Assembly: GCF_019352895.1 (NCBI RefSeq)
Contig: NZ_JAAAFX010000015.1
Location: 1-64,000, forward strand
Length of the DNA: 64,000 nt
From: Variovorax boronicumulans
Lineage (GTDB): Bacteria; Pseudomonadota; Gammaproteobacteria; Burkholderiales; Burkholderiaceae_C
Direction: 5' to 3'
The notes under the pieces are model-generated. The model worked only from the letters and a program-made list of their open reading frames with translations. It had not been told where the DNA came from and ran no database searches. The number at the start of each line of letters is the position of its first letter. Position 1 is the stretch's first letter. Below are positions 57,799-62,856 of this stretch, in pieces. The translations under genes were made by a program, and so were the position numbers.

Positions 57799-59043
57799 CT
57801 AGGCGGAATGCGCCCAGTTGGCCATCAGCGTGTTCGATGGCAGCTGTTCGTCGAGCAGCTTGCGCGCGGTCTCCACGCCGGCCACTGGCAGCCCGGTCGG
57901 ATCCAGCTTGCCGATCTGCACCAGCACGCTGGCCTGGTCCCAGTAGATGTGCTCGTGGTAGAGCTTGTCGCCGCGGAACTTCACGATGGCGACCAGCGGG
58001 ATCTCCACGCGTTGGCCGGTGGGCGGCACGCCCGGCAGCAGCCAGTCGATCTCGCAGCTGTGGGTGAAGCAGAACAGCATCTCGTCGACGATCTGGCTGG
58101 TGCCCACGGTGCGCGAGATCGGGATCAGCGTGGTGTCGGGCGGGTTCGCATCCACGAAGTGGTGGCGGTAGAAGCGCGACAGCAGCCGGTGGCCCACGCC
58201 GCCGGTCATCGTCGGGATGTGGTTGACGTAGGGCTCGGCCACCATCGTGGCCATGGTGGCCTCGACGTCGCGGGTGGCGAATTCATGCTCGCAGTGCTTG
58301 TCCCACAGCGCGGAGAAGTCGTAGTGCGGCCCCAGCACCTTGCGGAAGGCCGCGATGCTGCGCTGGTGCGCCATCAGGGCCGAAGGCTTGTGGAAATGCT
58401 CGCTGCCGGCGCGCGCGAAGGCGTGGTCCGCGCCGGGGTAGACGTAGAGTTCCACACCCGCGCGTCCCTGCAGCGCCTGCAGGATGGCGTCGCGCGCCGC
58501 CGGCGGGCAGAAGCCGTCCTGCTCGGCGATGTGCAGCACCAGCGGCTTGCCCGTGAGGGCCTTGGCCTCGTCCAGCGCCTGTTCGATGCCGACGCCGTAG
58601 TAGGCCACGGCCACCTCGCAGTCGGTGCGGCAGGCCGACAGGTAGGCCAGCTTGCCGCCCAGGCAGAAGCCCAGCACGCCCGCTTGGCCCGCGAAGGCCG
58701 GCAGGGTGCGCAAGGCGTCCAGCGCGGCCTGGATGTCCTCCACGCCCTTGGCCTCGTCGAAGCCCTGGTAGAGCGCCAGCGCGCGGTCGAACTGCGATTC
58801 ATCGAGTTCGATGCCGGCTTCCTGGCGCCAGAAGAGATCGGGCACCAGCGCGACATAGCCTTCCTCGGCGTAATAGTCGGCCAGCTCGCGCATCGTCTTG
58901 TTGACGCCGAAGATCTCCTGCGCGATGACGATGCCCGGACCCTTGCCCGCGGCGGGCAGGGCGAGGTAGGCGCCGAATTCGCCGCTGCCGTCGGCGGCGC
59001 GCAGGGTCAGGCGGCTTGCTTGCGCCTCGGATGTGGTGCTCAT
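57799..59043 (-). CDS. Dienelactone hydrolase fused to an NTF2/SnoaL-like domain
   Basis: A 414-residue fusion. The N-terminal half (1-235) is a dienelactone hydrolase with the triad C127 (GFCLGG), D176 (EQDGFCP) and H207 (GADHAF), plus E44 of the family (AQEIFG). The C-terminal half (about 240-414) looks like a SnoaL/NTF2-type domain (FYRHHFVD, WLLPGVPPTGQRVEIP, KLYHEHIYWDQ). It is the last gene of the SDR-StyA-flavin reductase operon and its ATG overlaps the flavin-reductase stop (ATGA). In known indole clusters a cofactor-free enzyme cleaves the ring intermediate to anthranilate; this protein is a candidate, unproven. Confidence 0.88.
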   Translation of the reverse strand: MSTTSEAQASRLTLRAADGSGEFGAYLALPAAGKGPGIVIAQEIFGVNKTMRELADYYAEEGYVALVPDLFWRQEAGIELDESQFDRALALYQGFDEAKGVEDIQAALDALRTLPAFAGQAGVLGFCLGGKLAYLSACRTDCEVAVAYYGVGIEQALDEAKALTGKPLVLHIAEQDGFCPPAARDAILQALQGRAGVELYVYPGADHAFARAGSEHFHKPSALMAHQRSIAAFRKVLGPHYDFSALWDKHCEHEFATRDVEATMATMVAEPYVNHIPTMTGGVGHRLLSRFYRHHFVDANPPDTTLIPISRTVGTSQIVDEMLFCFTHSCEIDWLLPGVPPTGQRVEIPLVAIVKFRGDKLYHEHIYWDQASVLVQIGKLDPTGLPVAGVETARKLLDEQLPSNTLMANWAHSA

Positions 59044-59603
59044 GGGTTGGGGTTTCCTTGGGGGTGCAATGTGGTGTAGCGGCCGTCTGCATAGAGCAGC
59101 GGCGCATGGCGTCCCGGGTGCAGTTGTACGGCCTTGATCTCGCCGATGATCACGGCGTGGCTGTGCGCGACCATCATCTCGTCGACCACGCAGTCGAAGG
59201 CCACCAGCGCATCGCGCAGGATGGGCGCGCCGGTGGTCAGGGTGTCCCACAGCGCCGTCTCGAACAGCTCGCCGGTGCCGGGCCCGGCGCCGCCGAAGCG
59301 CCCCGCCAGATCGGCATGGTGCGTGGCCAGCAGGTTCACGCTCATGCGCCGGCTCTCGGTGATGCCACGGAAGGTGCTGCCGTTGAGGTTGATGCAGGTC
59401 AGCAGGCGCGCGGGCTCCGCCGACAGCGCCGTGACGGCCGTGGCCGTGAGGCCCGTGGGCCGCTGCCCGTCAGTCGTGGCGACGATGCACACCGCGCCCG
59501 CGAGCCGGCGCATGGCCAGCCGGAAGTCGGCCGGCGGCAGGCACGCGGCCCGGCGCAGGGCCTGCAGCGGGGGCAGGGCGGCAGGCGCTTCGACCACGCT
59601 CAT
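59040..59603 (-). CDS. Flavin reductase (HpaC/StyB type)
   Basis: A 187-residue NAD(P)H:flavin oxidoreductase that supplies reduced FAD to the neighbouring monooxygenase. The pattern FRLAMRRLAGAVCIVATTDG and GLTATAVTALSAEPARLLTCIN is typical of the flavin_reduct fold; GRYTTL is at the end. It overlaps by four bases with both neighbours (ATGA on each side), so production is coupled to the oxygenase. Confidence 0.92.
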   Translation of the reverse strand: MSVVEAPAALPPLQALRRAACLPPADFRLAMRRLAGAVCIVATTDGQRPTGLTATAVTALSAEPARLLTCINLNGSTFRGITESRRMSVNLLATHHADLAGRFGGAGPGTGELFETALWDTLTTGAPILRDALVAFDCVVDEMMVAHSHAVIIGEIKAVQLHPGRHAPLLYADGRYTTLHPQGNPNP

Positions 59604-60850
59604 GCCGCAGCCTCCTCGGCCGGTGCGACCTGCGCGAGGTAGGCATCGACCAGGTCCGGGCGCATGAAGAAGTTCGCGTAGTCGGTCGGGTCGTTGAAGC
59701 CGTTGACGATGCGTCGCGCCACCGCGGGCAAGGCAGCGGCGCTGCCCAGCAGCCGCATCACATGCGGGGGCGGCGGCGCCAGCATGGCGTTGGTCCAGCC
59801 GCTCACATGCGTGCCGTAGCCGTTCCAGAAGCCCTCGAAGGTGTGCTGCATGAAGCGCTCGTCGAAGGCGGCCTGCCCCTGCGCGACGATGGCGGTCTCC
59901 ACCGCGTGCGCGAATTTCGCGGCATTGTTCGAGCCCTGGCCCGTGATCGGGTCGTTGAGCATCACCGCATCGGCCATGCCCATCACCAGCCGTCCGCTGG
60001 GCAGGCGCCCGACCGGCTTGCGCACCGTCGGCGGGAACGCGCCGCTGAGGAGGCCGTTGGCGTCGGTGAGTTCCACCTGCGCGCAACGCTCGGCTTCCCA
60101 TGGCAGGAAGCGCCGCAGGATCTCCAGTGAGCGCGCCAGGTGCTCGGCGGGGCTGCGGACGTCGGCCCAGCAGTCCATGGGGCCGCCCGGGACGCCTTCG
60201 AACACCATGATTTCGCAGGGGCCGCTGTGCGTGAGCGCCGGGAAGACGAAGTACTCGCCCACCCCTGGGATCAGGTTGAAGCTCACCGCGCTGTGCTCCT
60301 CGCGCGGCCGCATGCCGTGCACGTAGGTGAGGGCCAGGGCGCGCTGGGGCCGGTCGTAGGGGCTGCGGTCGGCGTCGCGCTCGAACATCTTGGCGATGGC
60401 GCCCTTGCCGGCCGCCACGATCACCAGGTCATGTTCGCGTGTCCACTGCTCCAGGTCCTCGATCTCGGCATCCTTGAAGAGCAGCTGGCCGCCGCGCTGG
60501 CTGAAGGCCTCCATCCAGCCGGGCAACTTGACGCGCTGGTCGACCGACTGCGCGACATGGTCCAGCCGGTGGCTCCAGCTCAGCGCCTTCACGCCCGCCT
60601 GCTCGGGGTGGGGCACGGCGAAGGAAATGCCCTCCACCGGCGGGCAGTCCTGTTCCCAGAAGGCCAGGCCGCGGTCCCGCTCCAGCTGCAGGCTGTCATG
60701 GAACATGCATTGGCTGGACATGACCTTGCCGCCGCGGATGTCGTCCGCCGAGCGGTTCGAGACCACGGTCACGCCATAGCCCCGGGCCTGCAGGCCTAGG
60801 GCGAGTTGCAGGCCGGACTGGCCGGCGCCGACGATGAGGATGTTGCGCAT
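59600..60850 (-). CDS. StyA-like styrene/indole monooxygenase, FAD-dependent
   Basis: A 416-residue external flavoprotein monooxygenase, equal in length to StyA of Pseudomonas (415). FAD-binding GAGQSG is at 8-13, followed by a StyA-type pattern: SPYDRPQRALALTYV (about residue 164) and NDPITGQGSNNAAKFA (about 300). Using reduced flavin from the next gene it would epoxidise styrene or oxidise indole. The set of partner genes (SDR, fusion hydrolase, AraC regulator) fits indole oxidation better than styrene degradation, as no styrene-oxide isomerase or aldehyde dehydrogenase is present. Confidence 0.9.
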   Translation of the reverse strand: MRNILIVGAGQSGLQLALGLQARGYGVTVVSNRSADDIRGGKVMSSQCMFHDSLQLERDRGLAFWEQDCPPVEGISFAVPHPEQAGVKALSWSHRLDHVAQSVDQRVKLPGWMEAFSQRGGQLLFKDAEIEDLEQWTREHDLVIVAAGKGAIAKMFERDADRSPYDRPQRALALTYVHGMRPREEHSAVSFNLIPGVGEYFVFPALTHSGPCEIMVFEGVPGGPMDCWADVRSPAEHLARSLEILRRFLPWEAERCAQVELTDANGLLSGAFPPTVRKPVGRLPSGRLVMGMADAVMLNDPITGQGSNNAAKFAHAVETAIVAQGQAAFDERFMQHTFEGFWNGYGTHVSGWTNAMLAPPPPHVMRLLGSAAALPAVARRIVNGFNDPTDYANFFMRPDLVDAYLAQVAPAEEAAA

Positions 60851-60876
60851 GGGTGTCTCCAGTGGTTTCGTGGGGG

Positions 60877-61674
60877 TCAGGCCATCAGCTTGGGGATGGC
60901 CGGCTCGAAGGATTCGGGACCCATGGCCGAGTAGCCGCCATCGACGGCGTAGTCCGCCCCGGTGACGAAGCTGGCGTGGTCGGAGCACAGGAACAGCACC
61001 ACCTGCGCCACCTCTTGCGGGTCGCCCACGCGGCGCAGCATGTGGAAGGGCGCGGCCACGCGGTCGGTCTTGGCGCGGTCGCCTTGGCTCAGCTGGTCCA
61101 TGATGGCCGACCAGGTCCAGCCGGGCGAGACGCTGTTGACGCGGATGTTGTCGGGCGCCAGGTCCAGCGCCATGTTGCGCGTGAGCTGCACCAGCGCGGC
61201 CTTGCTCGTGGGATAGAGCCAGCGGCCGGTCTGGGCCACCTTGGAGGAGATGCTGGTGAAGTTCACCACCGCCCCCCCGCCACTGCGGCGCAGGTGCGGC
61301 AGCACCGCCTGCAGCATCACGACGGCGCTGGCCACGTTCACATTGAGCGCCGTGAGCCAGTCCGCACGCGGCGATTCGACGCCGTTGTCGACGTAGCTGC
61401 AGGCCAGGTTGACCAGGAAGTCCACCCGGCCGAAACGCGCAGCGGTCTCGTCGGCGCAGGCCCGGACCTGGGCGTCGTCGGTGATGTCGGTGCGGCGGAA
61501 CCACACCTTGTCGTCGCCGCCGCAACTCGCGGCGACGCGCGCGCCGCCTTCGGCATCGATGTCGGCCAGCGTCACCCGCACCCCGGCCTCGTGCAACGCG
61601 CGCACCACGCCCGCGCCGATGAGGGTCGCCCCGCCGGTCACGATCGCCACCTTGTCCTGCAAGCCCTTGAACAT
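60877..61674 (-). CDS. Short-chain dehydrogenase/reductase
   Basis: A 265-residue classical SDR. The cofactor motif TGGATLIGAG starts at T13, S143/S144 and Y154-x-x-x-K158 form the active site, and the acidic ADID after the second strand suggests NAD(H). In the operon it precedes the monooxygenase by 26 bases and is the first gene read from the AraC-controlled promoter. It would oxidise a dihydrodiol or alcohol made by the monooxygenase; by analogy with IifB this is indole dihydrodiol, inferred from context. Confidence 0.92.
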   Translation of the reverse strand: MFKGLQDKVAIVTGGATLIGAGVVRALHEAGVRVTLADIDAEGGARVAASCGGDDKVWFRRTDITDDAQVRACADETAARFGRVDFLVNLACSYVDNGVESPRADWLTALNVNVASAVVMLQAVLPHLRRSGGGAVVNFTSISSKVAQTGRWLYPTSKAALVQLTRNMALDLAPDNIRVNSVSPGWTWSAIMDQLSQGDRAKTDRVAAPFHMLRRVGDPQEVAQVVLFLCSDHASFVTGADYAVDGGYSAMGPESFEPAIPKLMA

Positions 61675-61687
61675 CGCCGTCTCCTTT

Positions 61688-61711
61688 TATCGTTGGGATG
61701 GCCGAACGATA
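61688..61711. promoter_or_regulatory. Inverted repeat TATCGTT-N10-AACGATA
   Basis: Perfect 7-bp arms (61688-61694 and 61705-61711) lie 14-37 bases upstream of the SDR start codon, between it and the direct repeat. It may be a second operator near the transcription start of the SDR operon. Confidence 0.45.
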
Positions 61712-61734
61712 GGCAGGGCGGGGCGCGCGCGGGG

Positions 61735-61769
61735 TCCGGAAAGCGCAGGCCGGATCCCGAATGCGCAGG
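61735..61769. promoter_or_regulatory. 15-bp direct repeat, period 20: AraC-type operator
   Basis: TCCGGAAAGCGCAGG (61735-61749) and TCCCGAATGCGCAGG (61755-61769) agree at 13 of 15 positions and are 20 bases apart, two helical turns. This is the classic form of AraC/XylS-family operators. It lies between the SDR operon and the AraC gene, 61-95 bases upstream of the SDR start and 68-102 bases upstream of araC. Confidence 0.65.
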
Positions 61770-61836
61770 TCTTTACCGGGCGCCGAGGGCCGGCCCCGAT
61801 GTGCAGGAAGGGGCCTTTTGATAGATTGTCTGCACC

Positions 61837-62856
61837 ATGCTGACCCGGCCCGCTTCGCTGCCCCTGTCGCGCTTCAGCCTGTTCCACACCCGCGACGTGG
61901 ACCAGGCGCGCGAAAGCGTGGCGCGGGTGTTCTGCCCCCACGTGCTCAACACCTGCCACCCGCGCGATGCGCTGGACGCCCGCCACCACAGCGCGCCGCT
62001 GGGCGCGGACGCCAGCCTCAACTACGTGCAGTACGGCCCGGCCGTGGAGATCGACCCCGGCCATCTGGGCAGCTTCTACCTGCTGCAGATTCCCCTGCGC
62101 GGCGGCGCCACCGTCTGGTGTGGCGGCAAGGAGGTGCGGGCCGACCGCAGCATGGCCTCCCTGCCATCGCCCACCGAATCCCTGCGCATGCAATGGGCCG
62201 ACGACAGCCCCCACCTGATCGTGCGTTTCTCGCAGGCCGCGGTGGTGGCGCAACTCGCGCAGCTGGCGCAGTGCGAGGTGCAGGGCCCGCCGGTCTTCGA
62301 GCCCGGCGTGCGGCTGGACGAACCCTCCGTCGCCCCCGCCGTGGCCTTCGTGCGCTACCTCTGCGACGCGCTGGACGGCGACCCGGGCTTTGCCGGCTCT
62401 GCGCTGGCCCGCCAGGCGGAAAGCTACCTGATCTCCACCTTGCTGCTGCAGCTGCCGCACAGCCACCGGCCGGTGCTCGACGCCTCGGCCCGGCGGGCCC
62501 TGCTGCCGCGCACGGTGCGCCGGGCCCAGGAGTTCATGCGCGCCCATGCCGCCGAGCCCTTCACGCTGGTCGACCTGTGCCGCCATCTGGGCGTGAGCGC
62601 GCGGGGCCTGCAGCAGGCCTTCGCTGCCGCCACCGGCGAAAGTCCGATGGCGTACTGGCGGGGGATGCGCCTGGACCTGGTGCGCCAGGCGCTGGTGGGC
62701 GGGGCGATCCGCGCGGAGCCCGGCGCCCTGGCGCGGCTGGCCGAACGCTACGGCTTCTTCCATGCGGGCCATTTCGCGGCCCACTACCAGCGGCGTTTTG
62801 GCGAGCGCCCGGGCGATACGGCACGTGTCTTCAAGGAGTCAGGGCCGCCGCATTGA
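61837..62856 (+). CDS. AraC-family regulator of the monooxygenase operon
   Basis: A 339-residue regulator with an N-terminal AraC-binding-like domain (PF14525 type, about 10-190) and a C-terminal double HTH (about 235-335, FTLVDLCRHLGVSARGLQQA). It is divergent from the SDR-StyA-flavin reductase-fusion operon and should activate it when an aromatic inducer binds. The direct repeat in the 162-base gap is the likely binding site. Indole clusters of Acinetobacter and Cupriavidus also carry an AraC regulator. ATG 61837 is the only good start. Confidence 0.93.
   Translation: MLTRPASLPLSRFSLFHTRDVDQARESVARVFCPHVLNTCHPRDALDARHHSAPLGADASLNYVQYGPAVEIDPGHLGSFYLLQIPLRGGATVWCGGKEVRADRSMASLPSPTESLRMQWADDSPHLIVRFSQAAVVAQLAQLAQCEVQGPPVFEPGVRLDEPSVAPAVAFVRYLCDALDGDPGFAGSALARQAESYLISTLLLQLPHSHRPVLDASARRALLPRTVRRAQEFMRAHAAEPFTLVDLCRHLGVSARGLQQAFAAATGESPMAYWRGMRLDLVRQALVGGAIRAEPGALARLAERYGFFHAGHFAAHYQRRFGERPGDTARVFKESGPPH

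Follow-up and report, generated by a model that had tools for sequence, protein, structure and literature searches.

A probable iif/ind-type indole operon in Variovorax boronicumulans and a predicted operator beside its AraC-type regulator gene

In a 64,000-nt stretch of DNA from Variovorax boronicumulans (contig NZ_JAAAFX010000015.1; hereafter the window, and the organism the host), four genes and a divergently transcribed AraC-type regulator gene very probably form an iif/ind-type catabolic operon that would convert indole to anthranilate under the regulator's control. Our analysis was of sequence only. The conversion of indole to anthranilate, which had been put forward in a preliminary description of this DNA, is supported by the identities of the encoded proteins to published iif proteins, by an oxygenase that carries the complete indole fingerprint and none of the styrene one, and by the oxygenase tree. 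The gene content is that of the iif/ind type: an oxygenase of the indole-monooxygenase type, a dedicated flavin reductase, an IifB-type short-chain dehydrogenase/reductase (SDR), IifA and an AraC/XylS regulator are all present. The new element here is a predicted operator between the AraC and SDR genes.

Results

Gene layout

The features of the locus, in window coordinates, are:

57799..59043, minus strand: iifA-like gene, fusion of a dienelactone hydrolase (DLH) and an NTF2/SnoaL-like domain, 414 aa (Pfam domains; 60% identity to A. baumannii IifA; triad C127-D176-H207)
59040..59603, minus strand: flavin reductase, 187 aa, non-IifD type (Pfam; 27% identity to IifD; own tree clade)
59600..60850, minus strand: iifC/indA-like indole monooxygenase, StyA-like group E flavoprotein, 416 aa (Pfam, structure matches, fingerprint S45-Q47-M49-V72-I75-A100, tree)
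60877..61674, minus strand: iifB-like SDR, 265 aa (Pfam/NCBIfam; 57% identity to A. baumannii IifB)
61681..61686, minus strand: ribosome-binding site AAGGAG preceding the SDR gene (by eye)
61706..61711, minus strand: possible -10 element TATCGT of the operon promoter, with no consensus -35 (by eye, from its position)
61734..61747, minus strand: predicted operator half-site TGCGCTTTCCGGAC, promoter-proximal (repeat motif, shuffles, genome count)
61754..61767, minus strand: predicted operator half-site TGCGCATTCGGGAT, upstream, at a 20-bp period with the promoter-proximal one (repeat motif, shuffles, genome count)
61837..62856, plus strand: divergent AraC/XylS-type regulator gene, IifR-like, 339 aa (Pfam/NCBIfam; 31% identity to A. 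baumannii IifR)

The four-gene set with its facing AraC gene, as previously described, was confirmed in order, domains and spacing. On the minus strand, from 61674 to 57799, the genes run SDR, StyA-like oxygenase, flavin reductase and DLH/NTF2 fusion; 26 bp lie between the first two, and 4-base ATGA overlaps couple the oxygenase to the reductase gene (59603-59600) and the reductase to the fusion gene (59043-59040). The intergenic region between the divergent AraC and SDR genes is 162 bp long. Pfam matches were adh_short_C2 (3e-59) for the SDR, Smoa_sbd (1e-48) for the oxygenase, Flavin_Reduct (1e-34) for the reductase, DLH (6e-43) and SnoaL_2 (6e-6) for the fusion protein, and AraC_binding_2 (3e-43) and HTH_18 (2e-15) for the regulator. 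The SnoaL/NTF2 half is marginal in Pfam (27.2 bits, cut-off 27).

The proteins resemble those of the published iif operon

As reference we used an Acinetobacter baumannii record (L002) that corresponds to the published iif operon, since it contains the sites of eight primers from Lin et al. 2015, each with 20-25 matching bases and no more than two mismatches. Against this record, the SDR is 57% identical to IifB over 263 aa, the oxygenase 58% to IifC and the DLH/NTF2 protein 60% to IifA over its full length; the AraC-type protein is 31% identical to IifR over 323 aa and the flavin reductase 27% to IifD. The proposed correspondence to the iif proteins therefore stood for IifA, IifB and IifC and, at 31%, for IifR, but not for the reductase. 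The AraC-type protein is homologous to IifR, and orthology is plausible. The comparison covered IifA-D and IifR; no Cupriavidus oxygenase occurred among 54 plasmid records or the best 80 of at least 560 genome-contig loci. Identities to a Variovorax paradoxus cluster (L003) were 77% (SDR), 65% (oxygenase), 27% (reductase), 73% (DLH/NTF2) and 54% (AraC).

The solved structures closest to the oxygenase are 7z4x (603 bits), which we take to be the indole monooxygenase VpIndA1, and 9lrq (541 bits); StyA (3ihm) scored 140 bits. Entry 9lrq is deposited as 'Alanine-phosphoribitol ligase', a name that looks wrong, its sequence being by eye near-identical to A. baumannii IifC. The reported fingerprints are S46-Q48-M50-V/I73-I76-A96 for indole monooxygenases and N46-V48-H50-Y73-H76-S96 for styrene monooxygenases (PMC13101512). 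In an alignment of 121 oxygenase sequences, with positions counted as in StyA of Pseudomonas sp. VLB120, the oxygenase of the window reads S-Q-M-V-I-A, that is, six of six indole residues and no styrene residue. The full indole fingerprint was found in 97 of the 121 sequences, the styrene fingerprint in six (four annotated StyA and two from an unannotated Rhodococcus record, all N-V-H-Y-H-S) and another combination in 18.

The oxygenase tree, built without the skatole monooxygenase SkaA and rooted on the six styrene-type sequences, which form a separate group, set the window oxygenase apart from them. In this tree the window sequence pairs with that of Variovorax UMC13 (support 0.999) inside a clade of 17 sequences (0.998), mostly Comamonadaceae with one Myxococcus. 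The SDR and oxygenase in that last record (L017, Myxococcus sp. RHSTA-1-4) are 82% and 73% identical to those of the window, and no related reductase or IifA was found in the locus; as the record is named as that of a myxobacterium, horizontal transfer is possible.

From the chemistry reported for relatives (PMC6221969, PMC7225977, PMC12538310, PMC10934121), the pathway would run as follows. The flavin reductase would supply reduced flavin to the StyA-like oxygenase, which would convert indole to its epoxide, and hydrolysis of the epoxide would yield indole-2,3-dihydrodiol. The SDR would oxidise the dihydrodiol to 3-hydroxyindolin-2-one, which the DLH/NTF2 protein would turn into anthranilate with O2. 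The AraC-type protein may sense indole or an intermediate and would activate the operon from the two predicted direct-repeat half-sites just upstream of the promoter, and anthranilate would be passed on to a 2-aminobenzoyl-CoA route encoded elsewhere in the genome. We infer that the proteins act as their relatives do, that activation comes from binding of the AraC protein to the repeat, and that the 2-aminobenzoyl-CoA route follows.

A predicted direct-repeat operator recurs in AraC/SDR intergenic regions

Alignment of 12 AraC/SDR intergenic regions brought out a repeated TGCGC...GGAT block. The pattern GCG-N6-GGA, taken twice at a 20- or 21-bp period (12 fixed letters), was counted in 69 intergenic regions, the window's included, in which an AraC gene diverges from an SDR or reductase gene; start codons in these regions were extrapolated from tblastn hits. 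The predicted operator was exact (12 of 12 letters) in 32 of the 69 regions, and 11 or 12 letters were present in 54. Dinucleotide shuffles (100 per region) gave 12 letters in 0.01% and at least 11 in 0.3%, and six alternative spacing pairs gave an exact match in at most one region and at least 11 letters in at most six. Since the motif was derived from the same regions in which it was counted, and many of the loci are related, the shuffles speak for non-randomness and not for independence. For the 47 different site pairs that reach 11 letters or more, the median distance to the extrapolated next start codon downstream is 61 bp (range 13-242).

In the window, the predicted operator is a direct repeat of TGCG-N6-GGAY with a 20-bp period and 12 of 12 letters (61767-61754 and 61747-61734); the possible -10 element, placed by eye, lies about 22 bp beyond it. 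The strict form, TGCGY-N5-GGAY twice, has a single occurrence in the 6.53-Mb host genome, at this site, and a reversed control has none.

A further test covered 20 loci outside the set, 16 of them usable, with 200 shuffles each; in the other four (L023, L039, L064 and L066) the extrapolated start of the first gene fell beyond the contig, and their p values of 0.28 to 0.99 do not count. Six of the 16 regions reached p ≤0.01 and one more p ≤0.05. The A. baumannii iif region is among the six, with 10 of 12 letters 41 bp before iifA.

The arrangement recalls that of XylS at Pm. XylS binds a pair of TGCAN6GGNTA direct repeats, of which the second reaches two bases into the -35 box (PMC4225500). Both systems have two direct repeats of the TGC-N7-GG type, about two helical turns apart, upstream of a promoter, but the half-sites differ (predicted TGCG-N6-GGAY in the window, TGCA-N6-GGNTA for XylS). 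The papers on IifR and WhpR use neither 'operator' nor 'direct repeat' in their main text, and a search limited to one library showed no further paper on these regulators among the 20 listed of its 162 matches. On balance we favour the view that a single XylS-like operator code is common to the indole-monooxygenase operons of actinobacteria and of alpha- and betaproteobacteria. The code would consist of two copies of YGCG-N6-GGAY at a distance of 20 or 21 bp; divergent AraC-type regulators would read it, and it would be kept while the reductase type, the number of oxygenases (one or two) and the presence of IifA change.

The flavin reductase has probably been exchanged

Five queries yielded 99 reductases, from which a midpoint-rooted tree was built. 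It places the window reductase in a clade of 16 (support 1.0) that belongs to a half of 59 members (1.0), as does the reductase from a styrene cluster of Phaeobacter. The opposite half, of 40 members (0.983), contains A. baumannii IifD together with the StyB proteins of Pseudomonas VLB120 and Rhodococcus 1CP. From this placement in opposite halves, the reductase was probably exchanged rather than simply diverged.

Both halves of the IifA-like fusion are conserved

Across 28 full-length IifA sequences, the window's included, the dienelactone hydrolase triad C127, D176 and H207, which we assign from the motif and from what is known of the family, was kept in all 28. Mean agreement with the window residue was 82% across the NTF2 half, against 69% across the DLH half. 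As the triad is invariant and the NTF2 half even better conserved, both halves are likely to matter. The protein was still termed a 'putative cofactor-independent oxygenase' in a 2024 account (PMC10934121). Our guess would be that the hydrolase half both binds and deprotonates 3-hydroxyindolin-2-one and aids release of the lost carbon, with the NTF2 half lining part of the pocket. An AlphaFold model from 18 sequences had a mean pLDDT (predicted local distance difference test score) of 65, with a good DLH half and an NTF2 half mostly below 50, so that the packing of the two halves is not readable from it. The best 50 of 1261 matches in a PDB fold search were dienelactone hydrolases and, by title, mostly other alpha/beta-hydrolases.

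Relatives of this protein occur in other settings. A second, lone IifA-like gene in the host genome (C3, about 1502113-1503327; L115:9114-10328) is 72% identical to that of the window, groups with IifA of the tandem-oxygenase Variovorax clusters described below (82-87% identity, support 0.999) and by eye adjoins genes for a LysR-type regulator and an MFS transporter. On plasmid pCAR1 (L007), SDR and DLH/NTF2 genes follow a Rieske oxygenase, a reductase and an isochorismatase-type gene, with antA within the same 15-kb stretch; the last two iif steps appear there as a module behind a different front-end oxygenase. On a Caballeronia sp. Sq4a plasmid (L109), the same pair lies near a 3-hydroxyanthranilate 3,4-dioxygenase gene, suggesting a hydroxylated indole as substrate. 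Stand-alone NTF2 proteins without a DLH half, encoded on Trichormus (L107) and Sphingomonas (L106) plasmids, are 55-58% identical to the C-terminal half of the window fusion.

Related clusters and distribution

Of at least 560 oxygenase matches in the genome-contig scan the best 80 were retained, so locus counts are not general frequencies. Among these 80, the window's gene order together with its reductase type was found in 12 loci (L011-L016, L018-L021, L025 and L026), which is more than chance would give; two of the 12, L014 and L015, both carry the strain name E41. The cluster of Variovorax sp. UMC13 (L011) has the same five genes in identical order at 89-97% identity, with no notable difference.

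The iifABCDE/iifR clusters of A. baumannii ATCC 19606 and Acinetobacter sp. O153 have a homologous SDR, oxygenase, DLH/NTF2 fusion and AraC-type regulator. They differ in operon order (A-B-C-D-E, against B-C-D-A in the window), in iifE, which the window operon lacks, in the position of the regulator gene (downstream in Acinetobacter, upstream and divergent in the window), in the clade of the flavin reductase and in the operator repeat (10 of 12 letters in A. baumannii, 12 of 12 in the window). Tandem-oxygenase clusters of Variovorax (L003, L004, L060, L062, L069, L071, L078, L079 and L090) share the order of a divergent AraC gene followed by SDR, oxygenase, reductase and DLH/NTF2 genes, but have two oxygenases and an IifD-type reductase, which is fused to the second oxygenase in L003, whereas in the window a single oxygenase is accompanied by a reductase that is of the other type and a protein of its own. 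VpStyA1/VpStyA2B of strain EPS probably belongs to these tandem clusters. In the Pseudomonas syringae WHOP island (dhoAB/ipoABC/whpR), the dho and ipo genes are reported as homologous to iif genes, but they lie in separate operons with a porin-like ipoC (PMC12538310).

IifA was present in 22 of the best 80 loci; of the 67 loci in which the oxygenase is flanked by 4 kb or more of sequence in each direction, 21 had it. The genes after the oxygenase were examined in four clusters without IifA. In the Azospirillum cluster (L009) these encode a PF04199 cyclase together with an amine-oxidase-like protein, a set similar to that of Providencia, for which a PF04199 cyclase and an oxidoreductase are reported (PMC9871250). 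An amine-oxidase-like protein is also encoded in Arthrobacter L049, there with a thiamine-diphosphate enzyme; a sulfatase gene occurs in L041, and genes for a luciferase-like monooxygenase and a second flavin reductase in L054. Among the host and 60 relatives, the oxygenase occurred in 16 of the 61 genomes, all within the 37 of the host genus (12 with two copies; four, the host included, with one), and in none of the 24 outside the genus at E 1e-100.

In the flanks, six of 10 scanned open reading frames (ORFs) on the left match NCBIfam models at 1e-30, including FadB/FadJ-like, thiolase, M20 peptidase and acyl-CoA ligase, and three of eight on the right match models for a reductase family, an SDR and a c-di-GMP phosphodiesterase. 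Because no further iif-type gene was recognised by NCBIfam among these 18 ORFs, the five-gene set looks self-contained.

Weighing the indole assignment

Several observations weigh against the iif/ind-type explanation. The nearest NCBIfam model of the regulator is AndR, the regulator of anthranilate dioxygenase (149 bits, far under the cut-off of 350), and since this is the best model and identity to IifR is only 31%, anthranilate or some other compound could be what induces the operon. In Pseudomonas, the regulator encoded next to the homologous genes, WhpR, reportedly represses most of the WHOP operons (PMC12538310). In nine of the 16 usable outside-set regions a significant repeat was absent; one of the nine is from a Burkholderia iif cluster (L006) that has an AraC gene of its own, and two (L007 and L008) are without an oxygenase of this type. 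The flavin reductase, at 27% identity and in a different clade, is not an orthologue of IifD. Related Variovorax oxygenases are reported to oxidise sulfides and styrene in vitro (PMC6017014). Finally, a genome search with AntA of pCAR1 found no close anthranilate dioxygenase, only two partial matches (33 and 36%). As to the reductase, IifD orthology is not essential to the iif/ind definition, the Alloyangia cluster L005 also having a non-IifD type; as to the regulator, IifC was not seen without IifR in A. baumannii in the published account (PMC4577076).

With no AntA-like dioxygenase found, the operon might serve detoxification only, indole being converted to anthranilate that is excreted with its carbon unused. 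This is compatible with the indole assignment as far as anthranilate, and we regard it as possible, though rather unlikely. Against it stands a C13 gene set of the host. One gene scores above the NCBIfam cut-off for bifunctional salicylyl-CoA 5-hydroxylase/oxidoreductase and is 57% identical to an Alloyangia homologue; with it are a benzoate-CoA-ligase-family gene just under its cut-off (356 bits, cut-off 375), an acyl-CoA-dehydrogenase-family gene, a RidA gene (58% to Alloyangia) and, by eye, MarR and enoyl-CoA hydratase genes. Because the salicylyl-CoA 5-hydroxylase/oxidoreductase enzyme and the 2-aminobenzoyl-CoA hydroxylase are related, the C13 cluster, of 2-aminobenzoyl-CoA type, is the likely sink for anthranilate. 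No tryptophanase was found in the host genome by a search that passes its cut-off in one of 14 control genomes and in E. coli; indole would accordingly come mainly from outside.

It is improbable that the main substrate of the operon is not indole itself but a substituted one, for instance skatole or a compound resembling auxin. IifA-like fusions do lie beside other front-end enzymes, as in the pCAR1 and Caballeronia loci above, but the window oxygenase has the full indole fingerprint, whereas skatole enzymes are reported without it (PMC13101512), and an Acinetobacter plasmid homologue taken as skatole-type reads STFGLG and is 37% identical to the window oxygenase. The SkaA type was set aside on this fingerprint. 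An operon for styrene or aryl-sulfide oxidation, which membership of the StyA family and the in vitro activities noted above might suggest, is highly improbable given the absent styrene fingerprint, the oxygenase tree, SDR and DLH/NTF2 partners that match iif counterparts, and a search of the host genome, made without a positive control, that returned no styrene-oxide isomerase (StyC). The styrene, skatole and sulfide readings were all set aside.

Discussion

Taken as an indole-to-anthranilate operon, the cluster is another well-formed example of a known pathway, and mostly an ordinary one. What it adds is a predicted operator for the regulator, evidence of an exchanged flavin reductase and the pattern of IifA conservation. 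Indole is a signal common among bacteria and plants, and if the shared operator code is true, indole-responsive promoters would be predictable from sequence.

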